Below are positions 31,106-37,282 of a stretch of DNA of 47,633 nucleotides, one piece after another; position 1 is the stretch's first letter, and each line of letters opens with the position of its first letter. The notes under the pieces were generated by a model. The model did no database searches and was not told the DNA's origin. It was given only the letters and a program-made list of their open reading frames with translations. A program made the position numbers and the translations under genes. Location: positions 1-47,633 of the IMG/VR virus record IMGVR_UViG_3300046804_004793. One strand, 5' to 3'. Origin of the DNA: a virus.

Positions 31106-31268
31106 TGAAAACATTCCTGATCCCATCTGGCACAGAAACATTAGCTTTATAAAAAGTGGATTGCGCATTATTGCAGGTCTGTTTTTAGTGCTTTCTCATA
31201 GTTTTTTAGGAGCTGGTATTTTTTTGATCTTAGCAGAAGTGCTAGGTATCATAGAAGAAATCGTGTAA
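31098..31268 (+). CDS. Small single-pass membrane protein
   Basis: Short gene of 56 residues: MIDENIPDPIWHRNISF, then a hydrophobic stretch of about 30 residues (RIIAGLFLVLSHSFLG...GIFLILAEVLGI), ending IIEEIV. It has one long or two short membrane segments. It overlaps the preceding gene by eight bases, and its last base is the A of the next ATG, which fits a real coupled gene in this tightly packed operon. The function is unknown. Confidence 0.6.
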   Translation: MIDENIPDPIWHRNISFIKSGLRIIAGLFLVLSHSFLGAGIFLILAEVLGIIEEIV

Positions 31269-31819
31269 TGAATTACACGTACAAGCAAATCTTTTCTCAA
31301 GCTGAGGTCGATGAGTTTGTCACTCATCGACTTCGTTTTCCTTTTGAGAAAGCTGTTATACGAAGTAGGGAGAATAAAGACAAAGAGGATCTCTCTAAAA
31401 GAAAATCCGAGCGTCAGTATATTCCTTTTGATTATACGGATCCGTTTCTAGCAAAGCTTACCTGTTACATAATGCACGTATGTAACAAGGTATACAGCCG
31501 TTATGATTTGTGGACCTCACGGCCGTGGGAATTGTTGCGTTACACTCAGGGTGATTTTTTCGGAAGACATCATGATCAGATTAACCCCGTGATGGGTCCA
31601 TTTGTGTCAGCTGTGGTGTATTTGGGCGGAGACTACGCAGGTGGTGAAGTGCGGATATACAATGGCAACACTCAAGACTCAGTTGCTATAAAGCAACAAC
31701 CGGGGTTTGTTCTGACCTATCCTTCTGATACATACCATGAAGTAACAAAGGTAACAGAAGGCACGAGACTTTCTTTAGTAAACTTTTTTGGTCTTAAACC
31801 ACCAACGTTACACTTATGA
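31268..31819 (+). CDS. 2-oxoglutarate/Fe(II) oxygenase, prolyl-4-hydroxylase type
   Basis: Oxygenase-like protein of 183 residues with an intact iron triad: RHHDQ (His101 and Asp103), distal His157 in TYHEVTKV, and 2-oxoglutarate-binding Arg167 in GTRLSLVNFF. The LLRYTQGDFFGRHHD and VYLGGDYAGGEVRIY segments are typical of the P4H/PKHD group common in T4-like cyanophages. The substrate is unknown. It lies between gp44 and gp62 and may act on a nucleotide, protein or metabolite. It overlaps its neighbours by one and four bases. Confidence 0.85.
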   Translation: MNYTYKQIFSQAEVDEFVTHRLRFPFEKAVIRSRENKDKEDLSKRKSERQYIPFDYTDPFLAKLTCYIMHVCNKVYSRYDLWTSRPWELLRYTQGDFFGRHHDQINPVMGPFVSAVVYLGGDYAGGEVRIYNGNTQDSVAIKQQPGFVLTYPSDTYHEVTKVTEGTRLSLVNFFGLKPPTLHL

Positions 31820-32103
31820 TAGATATTTTAAAACCCACTATTGATTGGATACGTGATGACTGGGCTAGTAATAAGTTCCGCTTTGTTGTTGAGTTGCTTG
31901 CTTGGGCTATTAGTATTGGGTGTTCTGTTACTATGGCAACCACGGTCCCAAATCCCCCTCTACTTGCGTTGTACCCTATTTGGATTGCTGGGTGCGCTAT
32001 GTATGCTTGGGCTGCTTGGACTAGGAGAAGCTTTGGTATGCTCGCAAATTACCTTTTACTCGTGACGATTGATAGCGTCGGCCTTGTAAGGATGGTCATA
32101 TGA
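31816..32103 (+). CDS. Small integral membrane protein
   Basis: Protein of 95 residues with three hydrophobic segments: VVELLAWAISIGCSVTMATTV (about 24-44), LLALYPIWIAGCAMYAWAAWT (about 49-69) and MLANYLLLVTIDSVGLVRMV (about 74-94). It probably sits in the host inner membrane. No family is recognised. It overlaps the oxygenase gene and gp62 by four bases each, so it is expressed with replication genes. Confidence 0.6.
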   Translation: MIDILKPTIDWIRDDWASNKFRFVVELLAWAISIGCSVTMATTVPNPPLLALYPIWIAGCAMYAWAAWTRRSFGMLANYLLLVTIDSVGLVRMVI

Positions 32104-32519
32104 GTCCGTTTGACTTTGTTAACAGTATTAATCACAACAAGAAAGATTTGTTGCAAGATCCTGAAGTTTCAGAAACAGACTATGTTCCTTTTGTAGTTAA
32201 CAGGGCTGTTTCTTATTTTCCAGAAACAATTCTTCTTGCTAACGACATGAATAAGGCTCACATTACTAACAAACTCCAATATCACTATCTCCTAAATACT
32301 GTTCGTCCTGGCAAACGGTATGCCAAATGGGTGAAACGAGAGGATGATAGCGACTTACAAGCCGTTAGAGAATTTTATGGCTACAGCATGGAAAAGGCTC
32401 TTCAGGCTATGCGTATTCTCACCCCACAAAACATACACTACATAAAACAAAAACTACAACGTGGTGGAAGTAATGATCAAATTGGAAACACTAGTCGAGG
32501 TGAGACTAAAAACAGATGA
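32100..32519 (+). CDS. 62: Clamp loader small subunit gp62
   Basis: gp62-like subunit of 139 residues (T4 is 187; the cyanophage versions are also short). Family features are the opening MSPFDFVNSINHNKKDLLQD, VNRAVSYFPETILLANDMNKAHITNKLQYHYLLNTVRPGKRYAKWVK and the helical C-terminus. It is one copy per gp44 tetramer in the loader. The last 15 residues overlap the start of regA by 47 bases. Confidence 0.9.
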   Translation: MSPFDFVNSINHNKKDLLQDPEVSETDYVPFVVNRAVSYFPETILLANDMNKAHITNKLQYHYLLNTVRPGKRYAKWVKREDDSDLQAVREFYGYSMEKALQAMRILTPQNIHYIKQKLQRGGSNDQIGNTSRGETKNR

Positions 32520-32868
32520 AGATTTTTTGAAAGTAAAAGAGACCCTTACAAGAATTGGCGTTGCCTCAAAAAAAGATAAAGTACTATATCAGTCCTGTCA
32601 CATCTTACATAAACAAGGATTATATTATATTGTTCACTTTAAAGAGCTTTTCGCACTAGATGGAAAGCCTTCGAACTTCGGTGAAGAGGATATAGGACGC
32701 CGCAACACAATCGCTAATTTGATATCTGAATGGGGTCTTGTTTCTTTAGTAGATCCAAACAAATCAAAGACCCCATCTGCGCCGCTATCTCAAATTAAGA
32801 TTATTCCCTACAAGGAAAAAGATCAGTGGCAGCTCGTAACTAAGTACAGTATTGGTAAGAAGTTTTAA
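32473..32868 (+). CDS. regA: Translational repressor RegA
   Basis: RegA-like RNA-binding repressor of 131 residues (T4 RegA is 122). It controls translation of many early phage mRNAs by binding their initiation regions. The segment DEDFLKVKETLTRIGVASKKDKVLYQSCHILHKQGLYYIVHFKELF is nearly identical in pattern to T4. The ATG at 32473 has GGTGGAAG just upstream and is preferred to the in-frame GTG 12 bases earlier. Its stop codon overlaps the stop of the convergent minus-strand gene. Confidence 0.93.
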   Translation: MIKLETLVEVRLKTDEDFLKVKETLTRIGVASKKDKVLYQSCHILHKQGLYYIVHFKELFALDGKPSNFGEEDIGRRNTIANLISEWGLVSLVDPNKSKTPSAPLSQIKIIPYKEKDQWQLVTKYSIGKKF

Positions 32869-33386
32869 AGCGCTATGGGCAGCCACATCCAGATGGCTTG
32901 ACTTGAGAACGCAGCACCAGCTACACCAACAACCAGACTGACCCAGAACATTGGCATACTGACAGCAAGAATGCTAGCTGTCAAAAGTACAATGGCGATC
33001 TGCAGCACACTTGTTCCCCAAGTAAACCAAGGTGACTTTTTACGAGCCACTTCGCGCTCATCTTCCAGCGCTTTCGCTTTCGTCATAATCTCTTTCTTAT
33101 CTGCTTCCATTCTTTTGGCTTCAGCTTCGAACTTGACCTTGTTCTCAGGCTTACGAGCTTCCATGGCAGATGTTTCATATAGCACTTGACGAACATTCTT
33201 TGCTTGGTACCAAGCCCATTGATTGTTTGCAGCAATAGTATTGTTCATAATCTTGCTGCTGTTTTGTCCACCAAACATTGTTGTAATAGCAAGCAATGCA
33301 GCAAGAACGACAATGACAAAACCAGCTTTGTCTTTGATCTTTGCTTCTTTCTCGCTTCTGCTTAGAGGTTTCTTTTCTTCACTCAT
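32865..33386 (-). CDS. DUF4337-like inner-membrane protein
   Basis: Membrane protein of 173 residues resembling DUF4337. A first transmembrane segment (AGFVIVVLAALLAITTMFGG, about 21-40) is followed by NNTIAANNQWAWYQAKNVRQVLYE, which matches the family's conserved region. A charged coiled coil (KFEAEAKRMEADKKEIMTKAKALEDEREVARKK) follows, then two C-terminal membrane segments. AAAGGAG lies before the ATG. It is the last gene of the minus-strand block, with its stop interlocked with that of regA. The function of the family is unknown. Confidence 0.7.
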   Translation of the reverse strand: MSEEKKPLSRSEKEAKIKDKAGFVIVVLAALLAITTMFGGQNSSKIMNNTIAANNQWAWYQAKNVRQVLYETSAMEARKPENKVKFEAEAKRMEADKKEIMTKAKALEDEREVARKKSPWFTWGTSVLQIAIVLLTASILAVSMPMFWVSLVVGVAGAAFSSQAIWMWLPIAL

Positions 33387-33403
33387 TTTGACTCCTTTAA
33401 ATG

Positions 33404-33907
33404 TTATCTTTTACTACCGCAAGAATTTGCTACACAATACTGTACAAATTCATAGAATGCCCAGCTAGCGCTGGCTACTAACACTACACAAACAAAAATA
33501 ATAAAACTCACTTCGATTGTGTCTTGTATTTGTTTTTTTCTTTTCTGCTCAAGCTCTTTTAATTTTCTTGCTTCATGAGCAGCTTTTATCTCCATTGATC
33601 GAGCACGCTCTTTAATCTTATTCCATACATCGATCTTGTTTGCTTGTATGAATAACAATTGCAATTGTCGTTCGAATTCAGCTGTCTTTTCAAGAGCCAG
33701 TTCTATTTCAATTGCTGTTGCCATTGCTGACTTGTTACCGCCGCTCATTTTTACTTGAACGGCAGCTTTTGTTGCAGTTGTCTTTGCGTCGAAATACTTA
33801 CCCAACACCGGACCGAGCGAGGATACATCATCCACTGTTTGAGACACTTTTTTAATCAACGCAACCGCTGATTGTATGCCTGCTAGTGCGGTAATCGGAT
33901 CAATCAT
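33404..33907 (-). CDS. Predicted C-terminally anchored membrane protein
   Basis: Protein of 167 residues. The N-terminal part is helical and Ala/Lys-rich (IDPITALAGIQSAVALIKKVSQTVDDVSSLGPVLGKYFD). A long charged helix (WNKIKERARSMEIKAAHEARKLKELEQKRKKQ) leads to one transmembrane segment (VSFIIFVCVVLVASASWAFYEFV, about 133-155) and a short Cys-containing tail. AGAAGGAAG lies upstream of the ATG. It overlaps the upstream gene by four bases. The topology recalls small phage envelope or virion-associated proteins, but no function is recognised. Confidence 0.6.
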   Translation of the reverse strand: MIDPITALAGIQSAVALIKKVSQTVDDVSSLGPVLGKYFDAKTTATKAAVQVKMSGGNKSAMATAIEIELALEKTAEFERQLQLLFIQANKIDVWNKIKERARSMEIKAAHEARKLKELEQKRKKQIQDTIEVSFIIFVCVVLVASASWAFYEFVQYCVANSCGSKR

Positions 33908-34131
33908 CTTCTTCCTTCTAATTTACATATTTGTTTGTGTAATCGATTAGAGCAGTCCTTTATTTGCCATTCAAAACAGTTTACTTTCTGTGCCCCATTC
34001 ACGTATACCCATCCCCAACGAGTACAGACCCATATCTCATCCTCTTTTAAGGTTTTATTCGCATAACCTGTATCTACCCATGCCAACAACATAACAAACA
34101 AGAGCTTATTTGTTAGCGAGTGGGTTGTCAA
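33904..34131 (-). CDS. Small secreted Cys-containing protein, TTG start
   Basis: Protein of 75 residues with a likely signal peptide (TNKLLFVMLLAWVDTGYA, cleavage near residue 25). The mature domain of about 50 residues has four Cys (WVCTRWGWVYVN, VNCFEWQIKDCSNRLHKQIC) and could form disulfides in the periplasm. The TTG at 34131 supplies the positively charged signal N-region. The first ATG, 13 codons later, would remove it. No strong ribosome site is visible and it overlaps the upstream gene by 26 bases, so the start is uncertain. Confidence 0.5.
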   Translation of the reverse strand: MTTHSLTNKLLFVMLLAWVDTGYANKTLKEDEIWVCTRWGWVYVNGAQKVNCFEWQIKDCSNRLHKQICKLEGRR

Positions 34132-34726
34132 GTGCTTTTTGAATTTTGTTGTCTACTTCTTTTTGTAGTGTTGCGACATCTTTGGCTACTTCTCTTTTCA
34201 TTGTATCCACCTCTTTGCTGATGTCACGGCGCGCATCAGCTACTTCTTTACGAATACCGTTGACTTCAGTACGCGCCTTTTCTAAATCCTCGCGAATGTC
34301 CTTGCGGGCTTGACGCATCTCTTGCTCTGTCTCGCGTTGTGCTTGTTTGACGCTGCGTTCAATCTGCTCCGTTACAGTCTCGTTGCGACGGATATCGTTC
34401 TTGAGGTCCGTTTTGATGTCACGTGTATAGTCTGCTGTCTTAGAGCTATTTTGCTCAATGACTGCTAGGCGTTTATCAAACTCAGATAGATCAGGTGCCG
34501 TGTATTCAGCAATCTTTTTTTTCATGCCGACGTAATCTTTGTACACTTCGAATGCCCCGTACAGACCACCGAGCAACGATGATACAAGCGTAAATGCTAC
34601 CATTAGTTTGGCTGGGGTAAATTCGTACCCACCAATACTGATAACAGTATCTTTACTTGCGTACTGTTTTACAGCAGCTTCTGCTTCGTCAATCTTTGCA
34701 TTGACGCTTTTAATTTCTTCTCCCAT
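34106..34726 (-). CDS. Membrane-anchored coiled-coil protein
   Basis: Protein of 206 residues. It has an N-terminal helix, a transmembrane segment (KLMVAFTLVSSLLGGLYGAFEVY, about 40-62) and then about 120 residues of highly charged heptad-like helix (DIRRNETVTEQIERSVKQAQRETEQEMRQARKDIREDLEKARTEV onward). It resembles other phage proteins in which a long coiled coil projects from the membrane. AGGAG precedes the ATG. It lies 12 bases after the Cys-repeat gene. Possible roles are envelope scaffolding, lysis timing or exclusion; none is shown by sequence. Confidence 0.6.
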   Translation of the reverse strand: MGEEIKSVNAKIDEAEAAVKQYASKDTVISIGGYEFTPAKLMVAFTLVSSLLGGLYGAFEVYKDYVGMKKKIAEYTAPDLSEFDKRLAVIEQNSSKTADYTRDIKTDLKNDIRRNETVTEQIERSVKQAQRETEQEMRQARKDIREDLEKARTEVNGIRKEVADARRDISKEVDTMKREVAKDVATLQKEVDNKIQKALDNPLANK

Positions 34727-34738
34727 TTTTTCTCCTAG

Positions 34739-36451
34739 TTATTTGTATTGTGAATCAACCATTTCTTGCCATCGTGCTTCATTAGCACCACTTAGACGGC
34801 GTTGTACATTGCGATTGTCCACAGTTGGCTTATGGTATGCTTTCGCTACTGCTGCCGACATTGTATCCGGTATGGTTGCTTGTTGGTAACCGCTAAAACC
34901 AGGGACGTATCCAATCAAGCCAACCAATAAACCTTGGTGTGCCGTTTGAGCTTCCAGCGTGGCAGCTTTACTGGCATTTTTTGCTATTTCTACAGCTTTA
35001 GCAGCTATCTCTTTTTTTGCATCGGCTTTGTTATCACCGGACTTCTTTTCTACCTTAGCTACTTCGCTATCCGTCTTCTTTTGATCCTGTGCTCTCTCTT
35101 CTTGCTTTGCAGGAGGGGGTGGGGGTGGAGGAGCAGCAGCTGCCGCTGTGGCATTTGCTGTTGGTGATCCAGCAGGTGGCGGTGGAGGAGCAATGACTGA
35201 GTTTACGGAAGTCATCGATGTAACTGACGTTGTTGAAGGTGTACTCAAAACACTATCAACAGTAGAGCTAACAACAGTCACTTTAGTAGGATCATTCTTT
35301 GCAATCTCAACGTTTGTTGTCAATTGTTGATTGATAGCCGTCGTTACGGCAGGATCAAGATTTACAAGATACTTGATTGCATATGCTGTAGCGTATCCTT
35401 CGCAGCGTTTATCGTAGAGCGAATCTTTTAAGCATTGTTGTTTAAGATACGCTTCTGCATATCCCGGACAGTCCGTTGCATAAAGAGGATTTGCCGTACA
35501 CTGCTGTGTCTTATATGCTGCTGCATATCCCTCACAATCAGTTGCGTACAAAGCATTTAAAGTGCATTGTTGTTTCTTATATGCTGTTTCATATCCCGGA
35601 CAGTCGGTTGCAAACAACGGATCAAGAGTACATTGCTGTGTCTTATATGCTGCTGCATATCCCGGACATGATGCGTCGTAAAGTGGATTAATTGTACATT
35701 GTTGTGTTTTATAAGCCTCAGCATAACCAGGGCACGATGAATCATATAATGGATTTGCATTACACTGCTGTATCTTATATGCCTCCTGATAACCGGGACA
35801 GTCTGGTGAACTCAAAGGATTGGCAGCACAAGCATCAACAAGATATCTCAATTGAATCGACGGTTCACGGACACGAGGACCATAATACCCTGCCCAATAT
35901 CTGTTGTCTTTGCCGGTCCATTCCATCGAAAATCCGGATATTGTCGACGAAGAGTGATTTTGAGGAAACCACTGCGTTCCGGAGAACGTTTGAAAGTTCT
36001 CGGAATCTCCTGTCGTTTTATCGTTGTACGTGTAGTTGTATGTCTGCAACGCAGTACCATTCAATGCCTTCAACGTGAACTTACCACTGAGCGTGCCAGT
36101 GTTCAAATCATTATTGTTGATCTTCCATGAGTAGTTGTAACCACCAATGGCGAGACCGGCATTTTGTAACGCTTGATTGAACGCGTAGTTATAAGCTACG
36201 GTCTGTTGTGTGTAACCAAATATAATTGTGTTCGTTGAAGGATTGTATGCAGGAACACTACCACCGGAGACCCCACCAGCGGATCCTGGGACAGTGTTTG
36301 TCCATATACCATTTGTTCCCGAAGGTATTAAGTTCGGGGACGTCTCATATGTTACATTAGGGACCGGTTGACTGTTTGTCGTCTGTTGAGCTTGCGCCGC
36401 GGAACATATTAGTGAACCAATTGCCAGAAGAACCGTTATTATCTTTTTCAT
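34739..36451 (-). CDS. Exported protein with seven 22-residue Cys tandem repeats
   Basis: Protein of 570 residues starting with a signal peptide (MKKIITVLLAIGSLICSAAQAQ, cut after AQA). Residues about 23-200 are Asn/Thr/Tyr-rich and beta-like. Seven tandem 22-residue repeats follow at about 208-361, of the type C-x3-PLY-x3-C-PGY-x2-AY-x2-QQ. A Pro-rich/Ala-rich linker with two PPPPP runs is followed by a charged helix and a C-terminal AxVAKAYHKPTVDNR segment. The ATG at 36451 has AAAGG upstream. A TTG two codons earlier is less likely. It overlaps the upstream exported-protein gene by about 95 bases. No known function is recognised; an envelope or virion adhesin role is inferred. Confidence 0.7.
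   Translation of the reverse strand: MKKIITVLLAIGSLICSAAQAQQTTNSQPVPNVTYETSPNLIPSGTNGIWTNTVPGSAGGVSGGSVPAYNPSTNTIIFGYTQQTVAYNYAFNQALQNAGLAIGGYNYSWKINNNDLNTGTLSGKFTLKALNGTALQTYNYTYNDKTTGDSENFQTFSGTQWFPQNHSSSTISGFSMEWTGKDNRYWAGYYGPRVREPSIQLRYLVDACAANPLSSPDCPGYQEAYKIQQCNANPLYDSSCPGYAEAYKTQQCTINPLYDASCPGYAAAYKTQQCTLDPLFATDCPGYETAYKKQQCTLNALYATDCEGYAAAYKTQQCTANPLYATDCPGYAEAYLKQQCLKDSLYDKRCEGYATAYAIKYLVNLDPAVTTAINQQLTTNVEIAKNDPTKVTVVSSTVDSVLSTPSTTSVTSMTSVNSVIAPPPPPAGSPTANATAAAAAPPPPPPPAKQEERAQDQKKTDSEVAKVEKKSGDNKADAKKEIAAKAVEIAKNASKAATLEAQTAHQGLLVGLIGYVPGFSGYQQATIPDTMSAAVAKAYHKPTVDNRNVQRRLSGANEARWQEMVDSQYK
35369..35830 (-). repeat. Seven tandem 66-base coding repeats
   Basis: Seven consecutive 66-base units inside the exported-protein gene. 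Each encodes a 22-residue unit with two Cys. The most regular units are CTINPLYDASCPGYAAAYKT and CTANPLYATDCPGYAEAYLK, each followed by QQ. Unit 1 (CAANPLSSPDC) and unit 7 (CLKDSLYDKRC) are the most diverged, as expected for the ends of an array grown by internal duplication. Confidence 0.9.
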
Positions 36452-36920
36452 TTGCAACCTTTAGAGATCCAGGTTTACGGTGTGGGTTGTTGTCCCATTC
36501 TTGTTTTGCTGCCTCACCTATCTTGCCTGCATAAGGACAGGGAGTGCCGGCATCCATCATTGCCTGGAAGACGCGCTCGTCTTGACACATAGTCGCAACG
36601 GCAGCAACCTTCATACCCATGTCAAAAAGGGTTTTGGATAGCTTTAAGCGCTCGCAATTCATATCGCGGGTTGTAAAACCAGATGAAAAACCTAAGATTT
36701 GTGTCTGAACTGCGCCAGATACGCCAACTGTGCAGAGATCAGAGTTGATCGATGTGATTGTAGGAGCGATAGCAGATGGTGGGGGAGACTTAACAGTTGT
36801 CTCGGTGTAAGAATTTGTTGTGCTTCTCGAGGTCGAGTCAGTCACGATTGGCTCTGCTTGTGCGCTAGCCCATGTTGAAAACATAACAAAAAGCACCATA
36901 AAGGGTAACTTTTTGAACAT
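36357..36920 (-). CDS. Exported protein, first gene of the minus-strand block
   Basis: Protein of 187 residues with a signal peptide (KKLPFMVLFVMFSTWASAQA, cut near residue 22). A Ser/Thr/Pro linker follows, then a domain with several Cys (INSDLCTVGVSGAVQTQILGFSSGFTTRDMNCERLKLS, then CQDERVFQAMMDAGTPCPYAGKIGEAA). The end is Gly/Ser/Asn-rich (NNGSSGNWFTNMFRG). AAGGAA precedes the ATG. It ends inside the Cys-repeat gene by about 95 bases, a long overlap for this genome. No family is recognised. Its Cys count and export suggest a periplasmic or virion-associated role. Confidence 0.65.
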   Translation of the reverse strand: MFKKLPFMVLFVMFSTWASAQAEPIVTDSTSRSTTNSYTETTVKSPPPSAIAPTITSINSDLCTVGVSGAVQTQILGFSSGFTTRDMNCERLKLSKTLFDMGMKVAAVATMCQDERVFQAMMDAGTPCPYAGKIGEAAKQEWDNNPHRKPGSLKVANEKDNNGSSGNWFTNMFRGASSTDDKQSTGP

Positions 36921-36941
36921 TTTTATTCCTTTTTATACTAG

Positions 36942-36970: not shown

Positions 36971-37282
36971 ATGCAAATGCTTAAATTTAACGAAACTCCT
37001 GACGGTTATATTTTTAGTTTAAATAACAAACACTTAGCAGTGGGTGTGTATGAACAAGGTGTATTCCATTTATTACATGATGATAAACTTGTATCATACA
37101 ACAACGCAATGCAAGCGTTTTCACATTTACGGTCTATTTATGAACCTTTTGTTGCTAGTCCAAAAACGTTAGAACTTCTTAACACGCCTGCTCGTGCCAT
37201 TGACAATATGTCAAAGTTCAAGTACAATGAAATTCTCAAAGACATTCCTAAAGAGGTTTTCCATGCCAATTTTTCTAATTAG
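36971..37282 (+). CDS. Hypothetical protein downstream of divergent promoter
   Basis: Protein of 103 residues (101 if it starts at the second ATG at 36977). The sequence is globular (LKFNETPDGYIFSLNNKHLAVGVYEQGVFHLLHDDKLVSYNNAMQAF) with a helical C-terminus. No recognised family. The -10 element abuts the first ATG and only a weak AGG lies upstream, so translation may start at 36977 on a leaderless message. It is followed by a gene whose ATG lies inside its end. Confidence 0.55.
   Translation: MQMLKFNETPDGYIFSLNNKHLAVGVYEQGVFHLLHDDKLVSYNNAMQAFSHLRSIYEPFVASPKTLELLNTPARAIDNMSKFKYNEILKDIPKEVFHANFSN

Follow-up and report, generated by a model that had tools for sequence, protein, structure and literature searches.

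The virus contig IMGVR_UViG_3300046804_004793 of IMG/VR comes from a T4-like phage, and its 47,633 bases are the whole stretch of DNA analyzed here (the window). Its sole minus-strand block, at positions 32865-36920, is filled by six open reading frames (ORFs), which we named A to F in order of transcription. Judged from sequence, the first three belong to a triad that is common to T4-like phages, pelagiphages and roseophages: A and B encode exported proteins, B with a lectin-type head on a repeat stalk, and C encodes a membrane protein with a long coiled coil (Table 1). We hold the anatomy and linkage of A-B-C with high confidence. More tentatively, we propose that the three proteins may form a late complex that crosses the periplasm, attaches to glycans of the envelope and covers adsorption sites during and after lysis.

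A fixed three-gene core in several phage groups

A first set of loci was obtained by scanning IMG/VR with B and with A, which gave 84 loci among the matches listed (the A scan matched at least 600 stretches). Linkage was counted from iterated hidden Markov model searches, with duplicate loci excluded and a minimum room of 1 kb for B and of 4.5 kb for C. B follows A in the same orientation at all 71 loci with sufficient room, and C ends no more than about 4.4 kb from where A starts at 47 of 47; of the remaining genes, E is present at 20, D at 5 and F at 4 of the 47. The unit thus consists of a fixed core, A-B-C, plus accessories. A preliminary description of the window had taken the block for one envelope-acting system and had named scattered or unlinked genes as the finding that would speak against it. 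A, B and C are neither scattered nor unlinked, and for them the idea is well supported by their linkage, by a late promoter core that stands before A only (see below) and by the presence of the triad in pelagiphages and roseophages. The other three genes are accessory.

A tblastn search with A against annotated phages recovered the pelagiphages HTVC115P, HTVC023P, HTVC033P, HTVC202P, EXVC032P and Mosig, along with roseophages and a few uncultured phages; the single sequence of B gave no match to any annotated phage in the same kind of search. A large gene follows immediately after A in those of the phages recovered with A whose loci were inspected. A second IMG/VR scan, with the A proteins of these phages as queries, gave 80 loci, in most of which a gene for a transmembrane (TM), coiled-coil protein comes next after B. 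The literature searched holds no description of an A-B-C module, and no searched database names the set.

The A family extends to more than 590 IMG/VR stretches, on T4-like and podovirus-type contigs alike, and 39 alignment columns are invariant across 42 relatives. A matches phrog_20531, a family of unknown function (2.6e-13). A C-terminal TM segment is present in 61 of 82 A relatives and absent from the A protein of the window, while an A/B overlap of at least 52 nucleotides (nt) is found again in most relatives. The predicted structure of A was too poor for a structure search (mean predicted local distance difference test score, pLDDT, 59), and its profile had no useful match in the PDB. 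Eight matches to A were seen on bacterial genome contigs. At several podovirus-type loci (e.g., L144:4565-4813, L151:9792-9947; locus number and positions), the gene immediately upstream of A is short and lipoprotein-like (cluster c31), with LSAC or LSSC as its lipobox.

The C proteins share a characteristic terminus. The tripeptide NPL occurs within the last 14 residues of 65 of the 66 C proteins in the first locus set and of 52 of 57 in the second, versus 4 of 1392 other proteins. Two roseophage proteins annotated as lysozymes, CRP-207 gp73 (L093:3292-3873) and CRP-810 gp51 (L090:7294-7716), are TM/coiled-coil C proteins ending in NPL, and the lysozyme label looks wrong for both. Matches of C to known defense-system proteins in PADLOC are coiled-coil noise. 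Some podovirus-type loci (e.g., L114, L149, L161) carry a second TM, coiled-coil gene between A and B, whose product ends in an NG...H-like sequence rather than NPL and which is followed by a small Cys gene (c8).

A predicted lectin-type head on a repeat stalk

AlphaFold2 modeled residues 37-204 of B as a mostly confident beta-sandwich, much of it near pLDDT 90, and residues 207-362 as helical; beyond the stalk, a disordered linker leads to a helical end of low confidence. In Foldseek, the first-ranked match to the head fold (E 3.7e-7) was the sugar-binding (F-box associated) domain found in Fbs1/FBXO2 and related proteins. Superposition on Fbs1-type structures gave Z 11.9 over 153 residues (root-mean-square deviation 3.3), followed by a group at Z ~10 and then by other carbohydrate-binding modules. 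The similarity is also detectable in sequence (profile E 9.6e-5; single-sequence E 0.004). On the model, the B head joins the Fbs1-type fold family, and it is the only part of the block whose predicted fold places it in a known family.

The glycan-contact residues of Fbs1 are Phe177, Tyr279 and Trp280. Within its contact loop, Tyr279-Trp280 touch the N-acetylglucosamine (GlcNAc) pair GlcNAc-GlcNAc (PMC4603797). Tyr185-Trp186 of B sit in a motif that aligns with this loop. B thus resembles Fbs1/FBXO2 in the fold of its head, in sequence and in the Tyr-Trp pair, but differs from it as an exported phage protein that has a stalk and no F-box, and in that its sugar binding is predicted only.

The stalk varies across relatives from about 1 to 14 repeats. 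NPLY occurs within the stalk repeats of the window B, and we speculate that the NPL tail of C may mimic it. The head has a history of its own. Between the window and locus L005, the B heads are only 43% identical, whereas identity reaches 93% in the core of A, 100% in the membrane part of C and 82% in the B end; in comparison with L006, the head is the best conserved part (83%, versus 64% for the B end and 77% for A). The B head therefore moves independently of its operon. Such exchange would fit a part that recognizes host-specific glycans and, by analogy, recalls host-specific adhesin domains. Five other relatives have an alternative B head, conserved among the five, with no Pfam match and nothing in the PDB above chance; a nidogen-like identity for it was rejected on the same grounds.

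Late promoter core upstream of A

Of 50 non-redundant relatives, 28 have the late promoter core NTAAATA no more than 90 nt before A, versus 10.7% of other genes at these loci (Fisher p ~7e-14). No B gene is preceded by the core (0/48), and a single C gene is (1/40). The window contains three copies of the full T4 late box TATAAATA, as many as expected by chance; the genes that closely follow them are structural (tail sheath, scaffold, major head protein). The core points to late transcription of the operon in T4-like relatives; since the window has only the imperfect box TATAAAAA before A, lateness of the window copy is probable but not certain.

A possible role in masking envelope sugars

Phages are known to need a means of not adsorbing to cells already infected or to the fragments left by lysis; in T5 the protein Llp provides it (PMC9586334). 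We consider it possible, at a level of confidence well short of even, that A-B-C represents a new kind of phage system with the same purpose: a lectin on a stalk, with exchangeable heads, carried by T4-like phages, pelagipodophages and roseophages, which would mask or grip envelope sugars at lysis and so protect progeny or exclude rivals. C would sit in the inner membrane with its coil spanning the periplasm, and A and the conserved end of B would dock on C, perhaps via the NPL tail. The B head would bind an envelope glycan, either GlcNAc-containing peptidoglycan or lipopolysaccharide. Synthesized late and released at lysis, the lectin heads would then cover the sugars to which phages adsorb, so that progeny may escape trapping on the dying cell and its debris and competing phages may be excluded. 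D, E and F would be optional helpers. Linkage of the three genes, the NPL tail, the Fbs1-type head with its Tyr-Trp pair, head exchange, the late core and the lysis neighborhood at podovirus-type loci (below) are all consistent with this tentative proposal.

Several observations weigh against masking. Neither an outer-membrane pore nor a lipobox that could surface B was found in the window block, which leaves masking before lysis without a route. Described receptor-blocking proteins are expressed early, whereas the A-B-C operon is probably late; the window copy in turn lacks an exact late box upstream of A and offers only TATAAAAA at 36930-36937. In addition, FBG3/FBXO44 keeps both the fold and the Tyr-Trp pair yet binds no sugar; the fold is thus not enough, and sugar binding by the modeled B head is a prediction. 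Likeness to T5 Llp and other superinfection-exclusion proteins lies in the proposed purpose of stopping adsorption to infected cells or lysed fragments (PMC9586334). Unlike these, A-B-C is multi-gene, putatively lectin-based and probably late, involves no lipoprotein and has a function that is proposed only. At the level of Pfam and PHROGs, the block proteins show no similarity to the described exclusion proteins Llp, Imm and Sp.

Lysis genes and alternative roles

An accessory role in lysis is nearly as likely as masking and must likewise be seen as a tentative reading. A-B-C would link the inner membrane, peptidoglycan and outer membrane, and would aid their disruption or time the collapse beside holin, endolysin and, if present, spanins. 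At 32 of 40 podovirus-type loci, an endolysin/holin cluster, of several unrelated types, lies no more than six genes upstream or seven genes downstream of A (seven such clusters were counted, with c11 and c59 called holin-like by eye, not by library). Two small phages carry a relative of E beside or close to their holin and endolysin genes, and at locus L022 the triad is ~2 kb from spanin and endolysin genes. The late promoter core and the combination of a coiled coil with Pro-rich partners, as in spanins, would also suit such a role, and some marine phages have no recognized spanin (PMC6139136). However, 51% of all genes at the same A-centered loci are as close to a lysis cluster, and a lysis gene found by family search is far from A in HTVC115P, CRP-810 and MedDCM-OCT-S28-C10; both weaken the case for near-universal linkage. 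A generic lysis part would not be expected to carry an exchangeable lectin head.

Relatives of the block also have spanins of their own. Among 24 records carrying the block, 8 have relatives of one i-spanin at a separate site, and in the three inspected, all T4-like, a canonical cassette of i-spanin, o-spanin lipoprotein and GH19-like endolysin lies apart from the block (L197:516-1851, L196:450-1767, L022:8924-10238). The window itself, a fragment, shows no separate spanin. The separate cassettes speak against an accessory lysis role, and they led us to reject replacement of the spanins by A-B-C. Of the roles put forward in the preliminary description, lysis of the spanin type is disfavored on this evidence; the candidates that are left are accessory lysis, attachment to the virion, and exclusion of superinfecting phages or masking of receptors.

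A-B-C might instead form an adhesive surface or a released fibre that sticks infected cells or debris to neighboring cells, with a purpose like the sibling capture proposed for the curli of pelagiphages (PMC7029224, PMC9599517). This is an unlikely reading, though B is built like an adhesin, with a head, a repeat stalk of variable length and a putative anchor. The window block offers no route to the cell surface, and the outer-membrane pore CsgG was absent from the 24 triad-bearing records searched, with no such Pfam match in the block. The curli-bearing phage Melnitz gave no clumping (PMC9004378), in a system that is, however, a different one. Pelagiphage curli (type VIII secretion system) are similar in being an exported envelope module encoded by aquatic phages and shared between phage families (PMC7029224, PMC9599517), but the A-B-C proteins differ from theirs, and a curli identity of the block was rejected because CsgG was absent from those 24 records.

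Less likely still is a fibre attached to the virion, with B as a late protein that ends on the particle. The late core and an exchangeable carbohydrate-binding head, such as tail fibres have, would suit it, but the signal peptides of A and B and the TM segment of C indicate the envelope, and the window block sits among replication genes rather than structural genes.

A canonical two-component spanin, with C as i-spanin and A, B or D as o-spanin, is very improbable: C has one TM segment, a long coiled coil and a weak match to the Rz-like family phrog_312 (E 0.016, at the level of the coiled coil), and its exported Pro-rich partners overlap, but 8 of the 24 records have an i-spanin relative elsewhere, followed by a lipoprotein and an endolysin in L196, L197 and L022, and no lipobox occurs in A or B of the window or was seen in D (matches in relatives are rare and doubtful). 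Probable late expression, a TM, coiled-coil partner, Pro-rich exported partners, gene overlap and a frequently close endolysin are shared with Rz/Rz1-type spanins, whereas the lack of a lipobox, the lectin head and coexistence with a canonical spanin pair in relatives set the triad apart. By sequence, A-B-C belongs neither to the spanins nor to curli.

The block, its accessory genes and its surroundings

Table 1. Positions of the block genes, their parts and adjacent genes in the window
Feature	Positions	Strand	Description
Late-promoter-like box TATAAAAA	36930..36937	-	Imperfect; upstream of A; may be nothing
Gene A	36357..36920	-	187 amino acids (aa); signal peptide, Pro-rich linker, helical four-Cys domain; core
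A/B overlap	36357..36451	-	95 nt, out of frame; 3' end of A over signal-peptide codons of B
Gene B	34739..36451	-	570 aa; signal peptide, lectin-type head, Cys-repeat stalk, Pro-rich linker, conserved C-terminal region; core
B head	35840..36343	-	Residues 37-204; predicted beta-sandwich of the Fbs1 sugar-binding kind
B stalk	35366..35833	-	Residues 207-362; seven 22-residue repeats of the kind CxxNPLYxxxCPGYxxAY
B C-terminal region	34742..35101	-	Residues 451-570; conserved, putative anchor
Gene C	34106..34726	-	206 aa; one TM segment, long coiled coil; core
NPL codons	34118..34126	-	C residues 201-203, close to the C-terminus
Gene D	33904..34131	-	75 aa, TTG start; small exported Cys protein; accessory
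Gene E	33404..33907	-	167 aa; C-terminal TM segment; phrog_32327 (unknown function); accessory
Gene F	32865..33386	-	173 aa; DUF4337 membrane protein (PF14235, 8.6e-33); accessory
gp62, clamp loader	32100-32519		PHROG 6e-40
regA	32461-32868		Pfam Translat_reg 4.9e-46

T4-like markers recognizable in the window are the tail sheath, scaffold, major head protein, clamp loader, RegA, DNA polymerase and a UvsX-like recombinase. A greedy gene call gave 49 plus-strand and 5 minus-strand genes of at least 90 aa, all five of the latter in the block, whose sixth gene is D. GC skew becomes negative over the block, which is convergent with gp62/regA on one side and divergent from the gene at 36971 on the other. 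In each of the six ORFs, the annotated frame is the one of the six possible frames that codon usage favors, although weakly in D. A 2OG-Fe(II) oxygenase gene (31268-31819; phrog_61, 1e-21) lies shortly upstream of the clamp-loader and regA genes.

All six products are exported or membrane-associated (signal-peptide-like N-termini in A, B and D, TM segments in C and E, and DUF4337 in F). F alone has a firm Pfam match; the PHROG families matched by A and E are of unknown function, and no block protein matches a lysis family confidently in Pfam or PHROGs. The preliminary description was accurate in calling this the only minus-strand block, in the membrane or exported nature of its products, in finding no match to T4 lysis genes and in recognizing the DUF4337-like protein; its count of five proteins has to be raised to six.

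Relatives carry further genes in or near the block. Loci with a short B have three additional signal-peptide genes (c3, c4 and c7) between B and C (e.g., L063:9321-10606). The profiles of these had no useful match in the PDB, and a chaperone-usher pilus, suggested by the pilin- and chaperone-like look of c3 and c4 by eye only, was set aside because Pfam and the PDB gave no useful support. Between B and C, L006 encodes a 594-aa autotransporter-like protein whose middle is rich in Thr and whose C-terminal part is likely a beta-barrel. Loci L006, L030, L031, L037 and L040 each have a gene for an S11 D,D-carboxypeptidase downstream of C. In several relatives a large conserved protein of about 470-490 aa (cluster c28; L006:4051-5469, L015:8395-9846), TROVE/Ro60 RNA-binding-like by eye, is encoded near the block.

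Significance

Pfam has no name for A or C, and annotation of B goes no further than carbohydrate-binding. The module can be recognized by its signature, i.e., a signal-peptide A, a signal-peptide B and a TM coiled coil ending in NPL. If the lectin reading of B is true, A-B-C would provide a testable mechanism by which aquatic phages handle adsorption to lysed or already infected cells.

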